Origin: Paludicola sp. MB14-C6
GTDB lineage: Bacteria > Bacillota > Clostridia > Oscillospirales > Ruminococcaceae
Direction of reading: 5' to 3'
NCBI RefSeq assembly: GCF_030908625.1
Contig: NZ_CP133133.1
Location: forward strand, 1,736,001-1,800,000
DNA length: 64,000 nucleotides
Of this stretch, positions 52,829 through 60,968 are shown in pieces; the stretch's first letter is position 1, and every line of letters starts with the position of its first letter. The notes under the pieces were generated by a model that saw only the letters and a program-made list of their open reading frames with translations, was not told where the DNA came from and searched no databases. Made by a program: the position numbers and the translations under genes.

Positions 52829-55800
52829 ATGAAGCTTTACCGCCATATTGCAAGTGAACTTGAGCAGTTTAAGTCGCTTGTCAGTAACTTAGAGTCGGGT
52901 AAAAATCCTACATTAGTTGTAGGGCTAAGCCAAATTCACAAAGCACATTTTATTTATTCCACACAAGACACATTAAAAAAACAAACGCTCATCATAACGC
53001 ATGATGAGCTTTCTGCACGTGTACTTGTAGAAGACATTAACGCAATGCAAGGGGATACGATTGCATATCTATATCCCACTCGTGATTTCGCATTACGTCA
53101 AGTTGAAACTGCATCAAGAGAATACGAGCAAATTCGTTTGGGCGTTTTATCCAGATTGCTGTCAGGGGAATGCAGGGTAGCCGTTGCATCAATTGAAGCG
53201 GTTTTACAGCATACCATTCCGCCAAGTTATTTAAAAGAACGCAGCTTTCAAATTCGACTAGAGGGAAACTATGTATTAGATGAGCTAGTACAAAAGCTGG
53301 TTCGTTCGGGATATGAAAACAAACCGCAAGTAGAAGGCGTATGTCAGTTTTGCGTAAGAGGCGGCATATTAGATGTATTTCCACCGAATTATGCATTCCC
53401 TGTTCGTATTGAATTTTGGGGCGACCAAGTAGATACTATGGCATTTTTCGATATTGAAACGCAGCGCCGTACCGAGCGGGTAGATATCGTTTCGATTACC
53501 CCTGCCAATGAAGTATTATTTGATAGTATGGACGACCTTGCCAATAAAATCGAAGCCTTGATTGCAAAAACAAAACTGCAAAAGGCAAAAGAGGTATTTG
53601 GCAAAGACTTAGATCACCTTCGTTCTAGAATACTACTCAATTCCTATGATAAATATTTGTGTTTGGCATATGATACGCCAGCCACTATTTTTGATTACTT
53701 ACAAGATCCCATTTGTTTTGTAAGTGAATATTCTTCAATGAAAGAGCGATGCAAAACATATTTATGGCAATATCAAGAGGATATTAAGCTATTATTAGAA
53801 GAAGGCGAGATGTCTAAGCCGCTTTGCAACTTAAATCAAACATTGCCTTATGTCATGAATCGACTAGATAAAATTCCTACCGCATATCTTGATACATTCG
53901 CACATACCAACAATGATGTAAAGTTTGCAAGCCTATTATCTATTAATCCAATTCAAACCAGTAGCTTTGGTGGTGAACTGAAGTTATTATGTGAAGATAC
54001 CGCACCATTACTTGAGCAAGGGTATGCCGTAGTTGTATTAGCTGGAACGAGCAAAGCTGCAATGGCATTAGCACAAGATTTGCAACAGCTTGATATGCCT
54101 GCTCAATATGTAACTGATAGCGATCAAATTGCCTATAACAAAATAACAGTAGTTGCAAATACTTTGTCTTCCGGTATGGAATATCCTGATATTAAGGTAA
54201 ATATCATCACCACAGGAAGACAAGCTGATTCCAAGAAACGAAGTGAACGCTTTAAAAAAGGAAAGCAAATTCGCAGCTTAACCGATTTGGAAAAAGGCGA
54301 TTTAGTTGTTCATGTTTCTCATGGTATTGGTGTGTTTGAGGGTATTCACAAGCTGGAAATGCAAGGCATTGTAAAAGACTATATTAAAATCAGCTATGCG
54401 GGTGCAGATACGCTATATGTTCCGGTAACGCAATTAGATTTAGTATCGAAATATATCGGGCCAAAAGATGATGGCAAGGTAAAGCTGAATAAGCTACATT
54501 CTACCGAGTGGCAAAAAACACGTTCTCGTGTAAAAAAAGCTGTAGAGGATATGGCGGATGAGCTGATTCTTTTATACGCACGTCGGATGCAGGCAAAAGG
54601 ATATGCTTTTAGCGAAGATACCGAATGGCAAAAGGATTTTGAGCAGCATTTCCCTTATACAGAAACAGACGATCAGCTCCGTTGCATTGAAGAAATCAAA
54701 GCAGATATGGAACGCCCCGTTCCAATGGATCGTGTATTATGCGGTGATGTTGGATTTGGTAAAACAGAAGTAGCAATGAGAGCTTGCTTTAAATGTGTTA
54801 TGGATAATAAGCAAGCGGCTATTTTATGCCCTACAACGATTTTAGCATGGCAGCATTATCAATCATTCACAAAACGGTTCGAGAGCTTTCCGATTAATAT
54901 AGAGGTACTTTCACGTTTTCGTACTCCGAAGCAGCAAAAAGAGATATTGCAAAAGCTGAAAGATGGAAGAATTGATATTATAATCGGAACACATCGTTTG
55001 GTGCAAAAGGATATTGAATTTCATGATTTAGGGCTTGCAATTGTCGATGAGGAGCAGCGTTTCGGTGTTCGCCATAAAGAACGATTCAAAGAGATGTTTA
55101 CGAATGTAGATATGTTGAACCTTTCAGCAACACCAATTCCAAGAACCTTGAATATGGCGATTTCGGGTATTCGTGATATGTCAACAATAGAGCAAGCACC
55201 ACAAGACCGTCATCCCGTACAATCTTATGTATTGGAGCATGATATGAGTATCTTGGGTGATGCGATTAAAAAGGAACTTCGTCGTGGTGGACAGGTATAT
55301 TATATTCATAATAAGATAGATTCGATTGAGCTTTGTGCTTCTAAAATACAAGCAGAGGTACCCGAAGCACGAATTGCTGTTGCTCATGGGCGAATGGAAG
55401 AGAAAGAAATTACTGAAATTTGGCGTCAGCTTTTAGAGCACGAAATTGATATATTGGTTTGCACAACCATTATTGAAACAGGTGTTGACGTTGCAAACTG
55501 TAATACGCTGATTATTGAAAATGCAGATCATATGGGATTATCCCAACTATACCAATTACGTGGTCGAGTAGGTCGATCTAACCGTCGTGCGTTTGCTTAT
55601 TTTACTTTTACAAGAGGAAAAGTGTTAACCGAAATTGCAAATAAACGATTGAGTGCAATACGGGAATTTACAAAGTTTGGGTCGGGCTTTCGTATTGCTA
55701 TGCGTGACCTTGAAATTCGAGGAGCGGGTAGTATCTTGGGTGCAAAACAGCATGGACATATGGAAGCGGTTGGTTACGATATGTATCTACGTTTATTAAG

Positions 55801-56278
55801 CGAAGCAATTGCTGAAAAGAAAGGTGAACAAAAACAAGTACAAACGCATGAATGTTTAATCGACCTTCGTTTGGATGCACATATTCCGGAAGAATATATT
55901 GATGATACTTCACAGCGTATTGATATTTACCGTAAAATTGCGACGATTAAAACAAAAGAAGATAGCCTAGATGTAATAGACGAGTTAATCGACCGTTTCG
56001 GCGAGCCACCAAAAGCAGCGTTAAGCTTGATTGATGTTGCATTATTAAGGAATACGCTTGCAACATATGGCTTTGAAGAGATCAACGAGAAACCGCAAGG
56101 GCTATTATTGTACCCGAATAAATTGGATATGGATATTGCGCAAAAGCTGATTGAAGGAATCAAAGGCAGAGTTATGGTAAATGCGGGTAACCGTCCATAT
56201 ATTGTGGTAAAACCAATCCGTGGGCAAAAGGTAGATGCCGTTGCAATATTAAGAGAATGCGTTGATGCATTAGGATAA
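52829..56278 (+). CDS. mfd: Transcription-repair coupling factor
   Basis: 1149 aa, full length. Displaces stalled RNA polymerase and recruits UvrA. UvrB-like N-terminal module, RNA-polymerase-interaction domain (LEKGDLVVHVSHGIGVFEGI, about 490), helicase motor with Walker A CGDVGFGKTEVAMRA and DEEQRFG, then RGRVGRSNRRAFAY and the TRCF C-terminal domain. AGGAG before ATG, 36 nt after pth. Repeat R1 begins 10 bp after the stop. Confidence 0.96.
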   Translation: MKLYRHIASELEQFKSLVSNLESGKNPTLVVGLSQIHKAHFIYSTQDTLKKQTLIITHDELSARVLVEDINAMQGDTIAYLYPTRDFALRQVETASREYEQIRLGVLSRLLSGECRVAVASIEAVLQHTIPPSYLKERSFQIRLEGNYVLDELVQKLVRSGYENKPQVEGVCQFCVRGGILDVFPPNYAFPVRIEFWGDQVDTMAFFDIETQRRTERVDIVSITPANEVLFDSMDDLANKIEALIAKTKLQKAKEVFGKDLDHLRSRILLNSYDKYLCLAYDTPATIFDYLQDPICFVSEYSSMKERCKTYLWQYQEDIKLLLEEGEMSKPLCNLNQTLPYVMNRLDKIPTAYLDTFAHTNNDVKFASLLSINPIQTSSFGGELKLLCEDTAPLLEQGYAVVVLAGTSKAAMALAQDLQQLDMPAQYVTDSDQIAYNKITVVANTLSSGMEYPDIKVNIITTGRQADSKKRSERFKKGKQIRSLTDLEKGDLVVHVSHGIGVFEGIHKLEMQGIVKDYIKISYAGADTLYVPVTQLDLVSKYIGPKDDGKVKLNKLHSTEWQKTRSRVKKAVEDMADELILLYARRMQAKGYAFSEDTEWQKDFEQHFPYTETDDQLRCIEEIKADMERPVPMDRVLCGDVGFGKTEVAMRACFKCVMDNKQAAILCPTTILAWQHYQSFTKRFESFPINIEVLSRFRTPKQQKEILQKLKDGRIDIIIGTHRLVQKDIEFHDLGLAIVDEEQRFGVRHKERFKEMFTNVDMLNLSATPIPRTLNMAISGIRDMSTIEQAPQDRHPVQSYVLEHDMSILGDAIKKELRRGGQVYYIHNKIDSIELCASKIQAEVPEARIAVAHGRMEEKEITEIWRQLLEHEIDILVCTTIIETGVDVANCNTLIIENADHMGLSQLYQLRGRVGRSNRRAFAYFTFTRGKVLTEIANKRLSAIREFTKFGSGFRIAMRDLEIRGAGSILGAKQHGHMEAVGYDMYLRLLSEAIAEKKGEQKQVQTHECLIDLRLDAHIPEEYIDDTSQRIDIYRKIATIKTKEDSLDVIDELIDRFGEPPKAALSLIDVALLRNTLATYGFEEINEKPQGLLLYPNKLDMDIAQKLIEGIKGRVMVNAGNRPYIVVKPIRGQKVDAVAILRECVDALG

Positions 56279-56287
56279 AGAGGAGTA

Positions 56288-56381
56288 CCCTCTCAGTTTC
56301 GCTTTGCTCAACAGCTCTCCCAAGGGAGAGCCGTTTTTGCCTCTCCTTTAGGAGAGGGGAACCGCTGCAGCGGTGGAGAGG
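56288..56381 (+). repeat. 94-bp GC-rich hairpin repeat (R1), left of the first DUF559 gene
   Basis: Begins CCCTCTCAG and ends GGTGGAGAGG, so its tips are inverted repeats. Inner hairpins: GCTCTCCC/GGGAGAGC (56314-56331), CCTCTCC/GGAGAGG, and the perfect palindrome CCGCTGCAGCGG (56362-56373). A second copy of the same length and orientation is R2 at 56758-56851. Confidence 0.85.
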
Positions 56382-56417
56382 TTGAATATGCAAAATCTTT
56401 GCTAATAGGTGATAAAA

Positions 56418-56774
56418 ATGTATGACTATAATAAAAAGCTGGTTGTAAGAGCAAAACAATTAAGAAAAGAAATGACAAAGCAAGAGCATCATTTGTGGTA
56501 TGATTTTTTACGAGGTTTATCAGTCAAAGTGTATAAACAAAAAGTGATAGGAAATTATATTGTAGATTTTTATTGTGATAAAGCAAAGCTCGTTATTGAA
56601 CTAGATGGTAGCCAGCATTTTACTGAAATGGCAATGGATTATGATAAAGAAAGAACAGCAATATTATCAAATTTAGGTATAACCGTAATACGGTTTACCA
56701 ATCAAGAAGTGGAAGAACAATTTGAAGTTGTATGCGAAAAAATAAATTCGTTAATTACCCTCTCAGACAGCTAA
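56418..56774 (+). CDS. DUF559 endonuclease-like protein, copy 1
   Basis: 118 aa. ARAKQLRKEM-type start (VVRAKQLRKEMTKQEHHLW), then VIGNYIVDFYCDKAKLVIEL with DGSQHF following and VIRFTNQEV, the DUF559 core, which has a PD-(D/E)XK/Vsr-like nuclease fold. ATG 56418 has AGGTG upstream; GTG 56409 is an alternative. The last five codons and the stop lie inside repeat R2. Bracketed by direct 94-bp hairpin repeats. About half its core residues match the second copy at 60558. Nuclease activity is inferred from fold only. Confidence 0.85.
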   Translation: MYDYNKKLVVRAKQLRKEMTKQEHHLWYDFLRGLSVKVYKQKVIGNYIVDFYCDKAKLVIELDGSQHFTEMAMDYDKERTAILSNLGITVIRFTNQEVEEQFEVVCEKINSLITLSDS

Positions 56775-56851
56775 CGCTGCCAGCTCTCCCAAGGGCGAGC
56801 CTAAAAAAGCCTCTCCTTTAGGAGAGGGGAACCGCTACAGCGGTGGAGAGG
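56758..56851 (+). repeat. 94-bp GC-rich hairpin repeat (R2), right of the first DUF559 gene
   Basis: Same length and orientation as R1, sharing CCCTCTCAG at the start and AGGAGAGGGGAACCGCT and GGTGGAGAGG at the end. It differs mostly in the first stem (GACAGCTAACGCTGCC here). It contains the 3' end and stop codon of the DUF559 gene. Confidence 0.85.
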
Positions 56852-56892
56852 TCGTTCTCACATAATTTCCAAATTAATTGAATAAATATATC

Positions 56893-57357: not shown

Positions 57358-57414
57358 TGAGACATAATTACATACGTTATGTAAATGTATGATGAAAGAA
57401 GAGGTAATCAAAAC

Positions 57415-58695
57415 ATGAAAAAGAAAATCCTTGCAACCCTTTTAGCTGTTTGCCTATGCGTAGGCATTGCTATTCCTGCAGTTTTTGCTGCTGCAACAAA
57501 TCCTCTAGCTATTTCAACTTTAAAAGTTGACAAAGCTAGTTATGCAATCGGTGTTTCTGCAGCAACAGCTGGTGAAGATGTTACTATCGTAGCTAAAGCA
57601 ACAGGTGCAGACGGTAAAGATCTAAAATTAGAAGGTGTTGAATTTAAAGTAACATCTGATAACCAATTAGTTGTTCCAGATGCTGCGACACTAACTTGTC
57701 TCAGTGGTGATGATGCTGGTAAAATCGTAATTCCAGTTGGAACAAAATTAGGTAAAGCTAACGTAACAATTGCAGCTAATGGCTTAAAAGCTACTACTGC
57801 TATTGAAATTGCTGCTGATGTTTACCCAACAAGTGTAACTGTTAAAGAATCAAAAACAGTTGTTGCAACAACATATGCTGAAAAAGAAGCAAAATTTGAG
57901 TATGTTGTTTCTCCATCAAACACTAATATCCCTGTAGTTGCTACATGGGACGCTTCTGTTGCTGGTATGGCTACTAATGGAACATTCACAGCAACTGATG
58001 CTACAGCCGCTGGTGCTTACAATGCTAAAGTTAAATTAACTTTCACTGGTAAAGACGGTAAACCTGCAGAATTAGCTGCTGTTGGCGTTCTTAACGTTGT
58101 TAAAGCTGAAAATGTTAAAACTATTTCTCTTCCAGCTTCTATGGATGTTGTTGCTGGTCAAAAAGCTAAAGCTCCTACTGTAACTTATAATCCAGCAAAT
58201 GCAAATGCTGGTAAAGTAATCACTTGGGTAATAGAAAACGAAACTGAGAAAACTAAAGAAGTTGCTACAATTGATACAAAGACTGGTGAAATCACTGGTG
58301 TAGGCGCTGGTTCAGTAATTGTTGTTGCTACTACTGCTGGTAATGTTTCTGATAAAATCCAAGTTAATGTAGTTGGTGCTATTAAAGCAACTAAAGTTAC
58401 TTTAGATAAAGCTGCTGCTGATTTAGAAGTTGCTAAAACTCTAACTCTAAAAGCAACAATTGACCCATCAAACTCAAATGATAAAGTTGAATGGTCTACT
58501 TCTGACGCTGCAATCGCTACAGTTAAAGATGGCGTTGTAACTGGTGTTAAAGCTGGTACAGCTACAATTACAGTTAAAGTTGGCGAACAAACTGCTAAAT
58601 GTGTAGTAACAGTTAAAGCTGCTGCTCCTGTAGCTCCAAGCAAACCATCTAAGAACCCACAAACTGGTGATAGCTTATTTGCAAACTTATTCTAA
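57415..58695 (+). CDS. Exported Ig-like (BIG2) domain protein with truncated sorting-type tail
   Basis: 426 aa. Signal peptide (KKKILATLLAVCLCVG, cut near AVFAA, about residue 25). Ala/Thr/Val-rich body with repeated Ig-like modules; the last (about 330-410: ATKVTLDKAAADLEV, ATIDPSNSNDKVEWSTSD, VTGVKAGTATITVKVG) is a clear BIG2 domain. The C-terminus, PSKPSKNPQTGDSLFANLF, has a sortase-like NPQTG but only eight residues after it, with no membrane helix or basic tail. ATG 57415 has GAGG upstream. Likely secreted or loosely cell-wall associated, and well expressed judging from its strong promoter and terminator. Confidence 0.85.
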   Translation: MKKKILATLLAVCLCVGIAIPAVFAAATNPLAISTLKVDKASYAIGVSAATAGEDVTIVAKATGADGKDLKLEGVEFKVTSDNQLVVPDAATLTCLSGDDAGKIVIPVGTKLGKANVTIAANGLKATTAIEIAADVYPTSVTVKESKTVVATTYAEKEAKFEYVVSPSNTNIPVVATWDASVAGMATNGTFTATDATAAGAYNAKVKLTFTGKDGKPAELAAVGVLNVVKAENVKTISLPASMDVVAGQKAKAPTVTYNPANANAGKVITWVIENETEKTKEVATIDTKTGEITGVGAGSVIVVATTAGNVSDKIQVNVVGAIKATKVTLDKAAADLEVAKTLTLKATIDPSNSNDKVEWSTSDAAIATVKDGVVTGVKAGTATITVKVGEQTAKCVVTVKAAAPVAPSKPSKNPQTGDSLFANLF

Positions 58696-58768: not shown

Positions 58769-58782
58769 CATGTCTCTATGAG

Positions 58783-59233
58783 AATCGACTCCCTCAGTCA
58801 GCTAACGCTGCCAGCTCCCTCTAGGAGGGCGCCTTTTTTGCCTTCCTCTTTGAGGAAGGTGGCACCGAAGGTGACGGATAGAGTATTTTGAAAAGGGGAA
58901 ACCGTCCGCAGATGGAGGGGGATTGGATAGCGAACAAAAATAAGTGGGGAATCGACTCCCTCAGTCAGCTAACGCTGCCAGCTCCCTCTAGGAGGGCGCC
59001 TTTTTTGCCTTCCTCTTAGAGGAAGGTGGCACCGAAGGTGACGGATAGAGTATTTTGAAAAGGGGAAACCGTCGGCAGACGGAGGGGGATTGGATAGCGA
59101 ACAATAAATTGGTGGGGAAACGACTCCCTCAGTCAGCTAACGCTGCCAGCTCCCTCGGAGAGGGAGCCAAGAAAGAAACCCTAATCCCCCTTGTCAAAGG
59201 GGGAAACCGTCGGCAGACGGAGGGGGATTATTT
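58783..59233 (+). repeat. Tandem array of a 167-bp hairpin repeat
   Basis: Unit 1 58783-58949, unit 2 58950-59117 (almost identical), and a shorter, rearranged unit 3 from about 59118 to 59233. Each begins AATCGACTCCCTCAGTCAGC (unit 3 starts AACGACT), contains GGAGGGCGCC and CCTTCCTCT/AGAGGAAGG hairpins, and ends ACCGTC..GACGGAGGGGGATT. Together with 59234-59276 this fills the gap between the Ig-like gene and the manA promoter; the short open frames inside are repeat-derived. Confidence 0.85.
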
Positions 59234-60381: not shown

Positions 60382-60428
60382 CTTGCCTCCCTTGAAAAAG
60401 GGAGGGGAACCGCTTGCGGTGGTGGGAT
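60382..60428 (+). repeat. 47-bp hairpin repeat, left of the second DUF559 gene
   Basis: CTTGCCTCCCTTGAAAAAGG at its start, ending CGCTTGCGGTGGTGGGAT. It matches 60915-60961 at 46 of 47 positions in the same orientation. Confidence 0.85.
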
Positions 60429-60557
60429 GGTTATATCACACCAATTAAAATTTTATCGTAGGGTGATTCTATGTGGTCGCCCATAATCGAAACAGCTTGA
60501 AGGCAAATGAGATAAAGTTACAGGTGTAAGATTTAACTTCAAAAGAGGGCGAACTAT

Positions 60558-60968
60558 ATGAGAAAACATAACCCTAAATTGACACCAAGAGCAAAAGAAC
60601 TCCGAAAGGGAATGACACCTCAAGAAAAAAGGTTATGGTACAATTATTTGAATCAATTACCTATTCGCTTTCTCCGCCAAAAAATAATATGTAATTATAT
60701 TGTTGATTTTTACTGCGCTAAGTTAAAATTAGCAATAGAAATCGATGGCACACAACATTTTACACAAGATGCAATTCAATATGATATTCAGCGAACACAT
60801 ATTTTGAATACTTATGATATAGAGGTTATTCGCTTTAATAATCATGAAGTCGATAATAATTTTTATAGTGTTTGTGGTAAGATTGACTATATTATCAAAA
60901 AACGTGGAAATAATCTTGCCTCCCTTGAAAAAGGGAGGGGGACCGCTTGCGGTGGTGGGATAAAATAA
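60558..60968 (+). CDS. DUF559 endonuclease-like protein, copy 2
   Basis: 136 aa. Same family as the gene at 56418: LTPRAKELRKGMTPQEKRLW, then NYIVDFYCAKLKLAIEIDG with TQHF and VIRFNNHEV. The last 20 residues (from about LASLEKGRG) are encoded by the downstream 47-bp repeat, so the natural end may have been extended by the repeat. GAGGGCG before ATG. Bracketed by direct copies of a hairpin repeat, as in the first unit. Confidence 0.85.
   Translation: MRKHNPKLTPRAKELRKGMTPQEKRLWYNYLNQLPIRFLRQKIICNYIVDFYCAKLKLAIEIDGTQHFTQDAIQYDIQRTHILNTYDIEVIRFNNHEVDNNFYSVCGKIDYIIKKRGNNLASLEKGRGTACGGGIK
60915..60961 (+). repeat. 47-bp hairpin repeat, right of the second DUF559 gene
   Basis: Direct copy of 60382-60428 with one substitution; overlaps the last codons of the DUF559 gene. 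Confidence 0.85.

Follow-up and report, generated by a model that had tools for sequence, protein, structure and literature searches.

A DUF559 nuclease-like gene between hairpin repeats with an intrastrand-triplex layout, a candidate REP-like minimal mobile element

Directly downstream of a gene that we take to be mfd, the genome of Paludicola sp. MB14-C6 contains a short nuclease-like gene enclosed by two hairpin-rich repeats, which raises the question of whether the gene and the repeats form a single unit and, if so, of what kind. The window analyzed here is a stretch of 64,000 nucleotides (contig NZ_CP133133.1, positions 1,736,001 to 1,800,000), and coordinates refer to it unless indicated otherwise. 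The segment of interest spans 565 bp and consists of the upstream repeat R1 (56288-56382), a DUF559 gene encoding 118 amino acids (56418-56774; ATG at 56418, TAA at 56772-56774) and the downstream repeat R2 (56758-56852), all on the plus strand. It is flanked by mfd (52829-56278) on the left and by a surface-protein-like gene (57385-58695) on the right; the names of the window neighbors, namely, mfd, surface protein, manA, and ROK kinase, are our presumed assignments from reading the sequence. The DUF559 gene is the sole long gene inside the segment, the mfd frame is intact, and the unit is intergenic. An initial annotation of this DNA described repeats of exactly 94 bp in the same orientation, 10 bp after the mfd stop codon; the orientation is as described, but each repeat is 95 nt long and R1 starts after 9 bp. 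The start-to-start distance is 470 bp and, as originally noted, the stop codon of the DUF559 gene lies inside R2.

Global alignment of R1 and R2 includes 78 identities, 15 mismatches, and 4 gap positions, with 98% identity across the 3' 44 nt and drifted, merely similar 5' halves. Both repeats are doublets of a shorter unit, with variable element end points; R1 comprises two REP-like units arranged head to head (left, 56288-56332; right, 56339-56382). Each repeat that was originally described as single is thus a pair of head-to-head REP-like units, so that inverted units, too, flank the DUF559 gene. In R1, the core hairpin CCTCTCC-TTTA-GGAGAGG (pyrimidine arm, loop, purine arm; 56340-56357, plus strand) is followed by a variable hairpin, ACCGC-TGCA-GCGGT (56361-56374, plus strand), which separates the second arm from the third, GGAGAGG (56375-56381, plus strand), a mirror-symmetric copy of the purine arm and a candidate triplex third strand or tag. 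Folded as single-stranded DNA, R1 and R2 each form an outer stem with inner hairpins; the z-scores are -2.6 and -2.3, and 2 and 6 of 200 shuffles, respectively, fold equally well, so that the folding energy by itself is modestly above chance.

A search of the genome for PF04480 yielded three matches: the gene bracketed by R1 and R2, a second gene in the same window about 4 kb downstream of the first, and a domain in a 1122-aa frame. The second unit (60383-60968) contains a DUF559 gene with a 136-aa frame (60558-60968, plus strand), the 3' end of which reads through the downstream repeat (60916-60961, plus strand, z-score -3.3), a direct copy that is 98% identical to the upstream one (60383-60428, plus strand, z-score -4.0). 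The upstream repeat consists of CCTCCCTT-loop-AAGGGAGG, the small hairpin ACCGCTTGCGGT, and the third arm GGTGGGAT. These direct repeats of 46-47 nt are unlike R1 and R2 in their letters and share their plan (pyrimidine arm, loop, purine arm, small hairpin, purine tag), each of the two DUF559 genes in the window having its own repeat type. The third match (G000:C1:2771903-2772085, L003), inside the 1122-aa reading frame, is probably part of a fusion protein.

Repeats of this kind are also found without a nuclease gene. Directly 3' of the surface-protein-like gene, there are three tandem copies of about 167 bp (58782-59232, no strand assigned) of a related hairpin repeat that lack such a gene. 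With R1 as the query, 13 matches were detected in the genome, namely, R1, R2, and ten further distinct places (one matched on both strands), with E values up to 0.13. Nine of these ten places were inspected: several retain the entire doublet, roughly 90 bp long, in which the small hairpins differ, and the rest are halves or worn copies. One solo copy has ACCAC-AGCA-GTGGT where R1 has ACCGC-TGCA-GCGGT, that is, both sides of the stem are changed. The 18-mer core hairpin of R1, or its reverse complement, recurs elsewhere in the genome, as do two further copies of the unit 2 repeat, and solo repeats without a gene outnumber the DUF559 genes in this genome. The other seven genomes of the genus contain no DUF559 match (the gene is present in 1 of 8), and, among the relatives in which the site after mfd is readable, a comparison suggested by the initial annotation, none carries the unit: mfd is followed by manA in G001, G003, G004, and G007, and by a surface-protein gene in G005.

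The window protein matches Pfam DUF559 (PF04480) with an E value of 4.1e-31 and 107.5 bits, compared with a gathering score of 20.6; two other Pfam families were matched below the cut-offs, as was the NCBIfam DUF559 model. The gene is intact, with the conserved acidic and histidine positions present, and the protein corresponds to a catalytic domain alone. In a Foldseek search with the AlphaFold model (pLDDT 90.5), the best solved structures were 3hrl, the putative endonuclease-like protein NGO0050, and 3r3p, the catalytic domain of the homing endonuclease I-Bth0305I (E value of 1.1e-4 and TM of 0.70 for the latter), followed by mitoribosomal proteins and modified-cytosine restriction enzymes; Vsr (1cw0, 1vsr), the substrate of which is T:G mismatches in methylase target sites, ranked 11th, with an E value of about 0.03. 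A profile search by sequence recovered 3hrl with an E value of 1e-21 and 3r3p with 0.0027. Given these matches, the gene product is predicted to be a stand-alone, nuclease-like protein of the Vsr/EDxHD fold, nearest to I-Bth0305I and more weakly related to Vsr. The residues E22, Q40, D49, E60, D62, and H66 are conserved without exception in the 79 related loci (the best-scoring 79 of 578 confirmed places) and in all 10 distant proteins compared, with the invariance of E22, E60, and D62 among the 79 being partly built in because the search peptide patterns hold these residues. No in-frame stops were found in the matched DUF559 segments of the 79 loci, with a matching method that favors open frames.

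The DUF559 family is very large, with at least 7999 homologs among 8000 candidates scored. In the excerpts of the sources on which we draw, YcjD of E. coli appears as a putative PD-(D/E)XK/Vsr relative identified by profile in 2005 (PMC1189080), a cyanobacterial genome paper places a DUF559 gene in the EDxHD family (PMC9403480), and VsrA of Caulobacter, which holds DUF559, is a Vsr-like endonuclease behind the SOS response in methylase-lacking cells (PMC12907096). The window protein resembles Vsr, YcjD, and VsrA in fold, profile link, and DUF559 domain; the difference lies in the flanking repeats, of which the excerpts of PMC1189080 and PMC12907096 make no mention.

The repeats are neither missing from most DUF559 homologs nor equally common beside random genes, the two observations that the initial annotation had named as contrary to its proposal. 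A strict hairpin, defined as a 7-bp all-pyrimidine arm, a loop of 2-10, and an exact purine arm at most 150 bp from the gene, is present near 70 of the 79 DUF559 loci, compared with 13 of 142 control ORFs of the same loci, and on both sides of the gene at 41 DUF559 loci compared with 1 control. The Fisher test gives 1e-33 for at least one side and 2e-21 for both sides, values that are valid if the loci are independent; the 79 loci, which were found by peptide patterns, are mostly from Clostridia MAGs and are not independent. The difference persists with 6-bp arms within 300 bp (75/79 vs 19/98) and with 8-bp arms within 150 bp (55/79 vs 8/142); the 7-bp hairpin is missing from 9 of the 79 loci. 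Repeats that recur from flank to flank were detected at 48 of the 79 DUF559 loci (direct at 21, inverted at 33) and, among 98 other ORFs of the same loci, at 1 in the direct and 3 in the inverted orientation. When the phylum was sampled, hairpins were found at 6 of 7 strong DUF559 matches (those with a locus returned, the window's own excluded) compared with 3 of 22 weaker ones, so that the link to repeats seems to be a property of one subfamily. One locus, L054, has a partial DUF559 match beside a repeat array and looks like a decayed unit, and binning errors may underlie the taxon names assigned to L086, L095, and L126.

A distant set of 14 genes comprised ycjD of E. coli K-12 together with the genes of 13 out of 32 plasmid records from Cyanobacteriota, Deinococcota, and Pseudomonadota, the 19 records left out being from pathogens, the same genera, and a few others; PCC 7003 (L158) stood outside the count. 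With 6-bp arms and a distance of 250 bp, the hairpin was found at 12 of these 14 DUF559 genes, E. coli ycjD among them, the two misses being L146, where the domain is part of a very large ORF, and L147, which has 5-bp arms by eye. The hairpin density was 3.85 per kb near the 13 stand-alone genes compared with 0.41 per kb in the remainder of the loci, hairpins within one locus not being independent, and 3 of 41 control slots in these loci held a hairpin. Twelve of the 14 hairpins in the control parts sit in the 3.2-kb locus of a Photobacterium plasmid (L151), in a local repeat array away from the gene.

The association between gene and repeats is therefore general across several phyla, and the arrangement of R1, the DUF559 gene, and R2 is real, neither ordinary nor an artefact, with R1 and R2 placed beyond chance by the ten further places in the genome, the separate repeat pair of unit 2, and the similar repeats at most related genes. 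R1 contains a hairpin followed by a T-run and, like R2, has a modest folding z-score, as might be expected if G/C-rich hairpins, such as terminators, adjoined many genes by chance or through base composition. This explanation is hardly credible in the face of the low counts at the control ORFs and at the plasmid-locus control slots, and because terminators are characterized neither by a mirror third arm nor by repeat types specific to a gene.

The third arm is what sets these repeats apart from simple hairpins. Along the strand, the purine arm is followed by the variable hairpin and then by the third purine arm, and the variable hairpin has a stem of at least 5 bp in 68 of 95 unique inner segments compared with 4.5% of shuffles. 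Where the arm is not itself symmetric, the third arm tends to be its mirror image rather than a direct copy: across 322 hairpin sides, at 84% identity or more, it was found as a mirror copy in 126 cases, a direct copy in 42, the complementary arm in 37, and in shuffled sequence in 11. In a head-to-head comparison restricted to a better match of at least 74%, the mirror copy was superior in 122 cases and the direct copy in 14, with 32 ties; counted by locus, the mirror arm is found in 51 of 79 compared with 5 of 79 for the direct arm and 1 of 79 for shuffled sequence. The distance to the third arm peaks at 18 nt, and the tags face the gene in 83 elements and point away from it in 31. The arms of R1 and R2 are themselves mirror-symmetric and are hence compatible with the mirror layout while being unable to discriminate it from a direct one. 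A mirror third arm is the requirement of an antiparallel purine-motif triplex, and it cannot be accounted for by Watson-Crick pairing or by pairing of the tag with the other end. Judging by the order of their arms, most units are laid out like an intrastrand triplex, with a pyrimidine arm, a purine arm, and a mirrored second purine arm, and the retention of this layout while the letters drift suggests that it is the shape that is read.

At the level of whole genomes, repeat number tracks the presence of DUF559 incompletely. Among 398 genomes, a generic hairpin pattern reaches at least 8 copies per strand in four (162, 12, 9, and 8), and all four are among the eight genomes with a DUF559 E value below 1e-20 (p = 7e-8, with the pattern and threshold chosen after seeing the repeats). 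The other four genomes with a strong DUF559 match contain 0 (G382), 1 (G325), 3 (G116), and 4 (G319) pattern copies, and in G076, one of the four leaders, a reversed control pattern gave 36 matches compared with 8 for the pattern itself. In one genus, a query consisting of the unit and about 1.1 kb of host flank produced at least 95, at least 40, and at least 121 matches in three genomes with DUF559, two genomes in this comparison being scored for 40 of 71 and 40 of 113 candidates. A fourth genome of that genus, without the gene, gave 0 matches, and the host flank was likewise unmatched, so that this genome is perhaps too distant and the three-versus-one comparison is weak. Two strong DUF559 genes are found next to other systems, L031 (G382) by a cas1-like gene and L036 (G319) by a CRISPR-like array of 32-nt repeats, and possibly belong to another subfamily with another role.

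The clearest indication of mobility comes from the genus of G217, in which a filled and an empty state can be compared in a region that we read as spoIVB-spo0A. The region runs without interruption in G409 and G217, with 88.6% identity across an alignment of 2377 columns. In G410, the left flank can be followed up to the counterpart of position 1621 of the G409 locus, and the right flank from position 1654 onward; between them, with 32 bp replaced, lie the DUF559 gene and arrays of repeats. This filled state is spread over two MAG contigs, each of which terminates in repeats and which, from synteny, probably join at the filled site. The hpa operon carries the unit in two Deinococcus plasmids, at a different junction in each, and in Sphingomonas, the unit is located between sufB and sufC. 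Neither a target-site duplication nor an exact element end was found at the examined sites, G410 included. Comparisons of Sinorhizobium and Azospirillum plasmids revealed repeat copies elsewhere and no clean empty site, and an apparently moved 520-bp cassette in Picosynechococcus 7002 versus 7003 was rejected because the neighboring stretches align as well, so that the pair provides no evidence of movement.

The filled/empty junction, along with the closest solved folds, 3hrl (NGO0050) and I-Bth0305I, is also what would be expected of homing-like spread, whereby the nuclease cuts empty intergenic targets and homologous recombination copies the unit, with the repeats being the cut site or scars rather than a self-moving substrate. 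We regard such spread as unlikely because homing needs a conserved target allele, whereas the sites occupied by the units are unrelated (downstream of mfd and of manA, within the hpa operon, between sufB and sufC, and at the spoIVB-spo0A-like junction), and because geneless solo repeats outnumber genes in the Paludicola genome. Furthermore, the window protein has no domain besides the catalytic one, in contrast to I-Bth0305I, which is described in PMC3943268 as a long enzyme with several domains. The DUF559 unit shares with I-Bth0305I the EDxHD catalytic domain fold but has no intron or further DNA-binding region and does have flanking hairpin repeats, and its identity as a homing endonuclease, which would call for residence in an intron or homing site, was rejected on this context.

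A closer parallel is provided by RAYTs, the HUH single-strand transposases that, in the excerpts of PMC8266576 and PMC3733652, act on hairpins with a GTAG in front of them. As in RAYT/REPtron/REPIN systems, a small enzyme gene is located between short extragenic hairpins, often inverted, with solo copies and head-to-head doublets; the DUF559 unit differs in having a nuclease of the Vsr/EDxHD fold, no GTAG at the unit end, and a third mirror arm. GTAG is absent from both strands of R1 and of the unit 2 repeats; the single GTAG of R2 is a minus-strand one and lies within the small-hairpin loop rather than at an end, at a place where R1 differs. Identity as a RAYT was rejected on the tag and on the enzyme, given that the protein is not an HUH tyrosine transposase, matches Pfam DUF559, and is of the I-Bth0305I/Vsr fold type. 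Among insertion-sequence features, inverted terminal units are seen by eye, no target-site duplication was identified, and 32 bp of the empty site are replaced. These comparisons suggest that the unit belongs to a REP-plus-enzyme kind that is neither a RAYT nor a homing endonuclease and was previously unnamed.

Other published repeats were compared as well. CGTC-tagged REPs 'apparently lack a dedicated transposase', in the wording of an excerpt of Di Nocera 2013 (PMC3733652), and some Clostridial units resemble them, by eye alone, in carrying CCGTCAC..GTGCCA on one strand, but the DUF559 repeats of A. lipoferum (L144), a species listed for CGTC REPs, lack that tag. The terms RAYT, nuclease, and transposase were not found in the RepRanger paper, and a link between DUF559 and repeats was not found among the matches listed from the open-licence PMC literature, as represented by excerpts. 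The sole Rfam match near the unit, L20_leader, was rejected (22.7 bits compared with a gathering score of 58.7; E value 0.44).

The reading that we favor, with a probability of roughly 0.6, is that the unit is the gene-bearing form of a REP/RAYT-like minimal mobile element with a Vsr-type nuclease and triplex-forming ends, for which recognition, cutting, and copying would proceed as follows. The hairpin or triplex would extrude when the repeat tract is single-stranded or strongly supercoiled, with one strand folding back as an antiparallel purine triplex in which the third purine arm mirrors the second. DUF559 would recognize the extruded shape and nick or cut at the tag, and host repair or replication would copy one end, or both ends together with the gene, into another intergenic site. 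Under this scheme, solo repeats would be non-autonomous copies and the repeat-flanked gene the autonomous one. The small selfish unit with RAYT-REP logic and a different enzyme fold that the initial annotation envisaged fits the association, the solo copies, and the I-Bth0305I/Vsr-type fold; the triplex layout, the second unit, and the triplex repeat beside E. coli ycjD were not part of that annotation. Given that the enzyme class is unlike RAYT, the chemistry must differ: the extruded hairpin or triplex would be cut or nicked hydrolytically, and host repair or replication would then make the copy elsewhere. Hydrolytic nucleases are not known to have strand-transfer activity, so that copying must rely on host repair, which we count against the favored reading, along with the retention of repeats in E. 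coli records that lack the ycjD region (see below), the split of the filled site over two contigs with 32 bp replaced, and the target-site duplication that was looked for and not found. Its main weaknesses are the sampling (mostly Clostridia MAGs), the failure to find an exact element end, and the incomplete correlation between repeat number and gene.

Mobility could also be supplied from outside, with another transposase that targets REP-like repeats moving DUF559 cassettes in which DUF559 itself has no role. Known insertion sequences reportedly target REPs (PMC1525189), and one weak solo copy (L021) adjoins what reads as a transposase-like frame. Such hitch-hiking is nevertheless very improbable, given that the nuclease is the only long gene of the segment, among neighbors read as mfd, surface protein, manA, and ROK kinase, and that its frame stays open, without stops in any of the 79 matched segments, the method favoring open frames.

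Outside the Clostridia, the comparison with E. coli is the most informative for the generality of the favored reading. The excerpts of Holder et al. 2015 (PMC4666352) describe intrastrand triplex repeats, with 23 copies in E. coli MG1655 and 3610 in 262 proteobacterial genomes; these TM-ECO repeats are intergenic and scattered, include some inverted pairs, and are linked to instability, their loci in E. coli are reported to be more rearranged, and the reported CD/NMR evidence of a triplex pertains to them and not to the window family. The terms 'nuclease', 'DUF559', and 'ycjD' are absent from the main text of that paper. TM-ECO copy no. 9 (1,351,204-1,351,239 in E. coli) lies 167 bp from ycjD (1,351,407-1,351,760), the DUF559 gene of E. 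coli. The TM-ECO repeats resemble those of the window in the order of pyrimidine arm, loop, purine arm, second loop, and second purine arm and in being intergenic and scattered, with some inverted pairs; they differ in having 9-nt arms and a 3-nt second loop, compared with 7-8-nt arms and a hairpin as the second loop in the window repeats. A place covering at least 80% of the ycjD region was identified in 3362 of 5426 genomes. At least 22 E. coli records without this region keep repeats at 1-5 places, one of which is the fabI-side flank itself, and solo TM loci differ between strains. A clean empty site for ycjD was not found in three of the genomes without the region (L152-L154); these have a TetR gene and efflux genes beside fabI instead, so that a simple insertion could not be read from them. 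In the E. coli locus L138 (3041-3828), ycjD and a triplex repeat are found, between fabI and sapF, in place of the efflux genes of other lineages; in an excerpt of a 2026 paper, ycjD occupies the place of the eef operon in E. coli, which is read there as operon loss (PMC12817139).

Rearrangement at such loci bears on a different role of the enzyme, in host repair or maintenance, whereby a Vsr-like DUF559 protein would resolve or trim hairpin or triplex DNA, and the gene would have come to lie near the repeats because these are hot spots of insertion or rearrangement. Caulobacter VsrA, with its DUF559 domain, is reported to be Vsr-like and SOS-related (excerpt of PMC12907096), Vsr is a weaker fold match of the window protein (rank 11), triplex-repeat loci of E. 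coli are reported as more rearranged (excerpt of PMC4666352), and ycjD marks a rearranged locus. Repair enzymes, however, are expected at one locus, whereas the DUF559 gene is found in 1 of 8 genomes of the genus, changes location from relative to relative, and occurs twice in the window, each time with its own repeat type, all of which makes a maintenance role rather improbable.

A broader version of the favored reading, which we put forward tentatively and at somewhat less than even odds, is that stand-alone DUF559 proteins might be the enzymes devoted to spreading intrastrand-triplex repeats throughout Bacteria, those of the TM type in E. coli among them. They would define a class of minimal mobile element in which a nuclease of the homing-endonuclease fold might read a shape, the hairpin with its mirror third strand, rather than a fixed sequence. 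If so, arms and loops could drift while the triplex layout stays. Many bacteria have large numbers of G/C-rich hairpin and triplex repeats in their intergenic regions, and the 2015 description of those in E. coli named no enzyme; DUF559 would be a candidate partner for repeats that had none, turning their origin into a question for the bench in E. coli K-12. Recognition of a triplex or hairpin shape would be an unusual principle for a mobile element and could provide a handle on non-B DNA in living cells, and a very large, little-studied nuclease family would gain a role. On three cyanobacterial plasmids (L142, L147, and L158), the DUF559 unit adjoins DUF1156 genes and, in one case, a DUF499 gene, which may represent a defence-type cluster.
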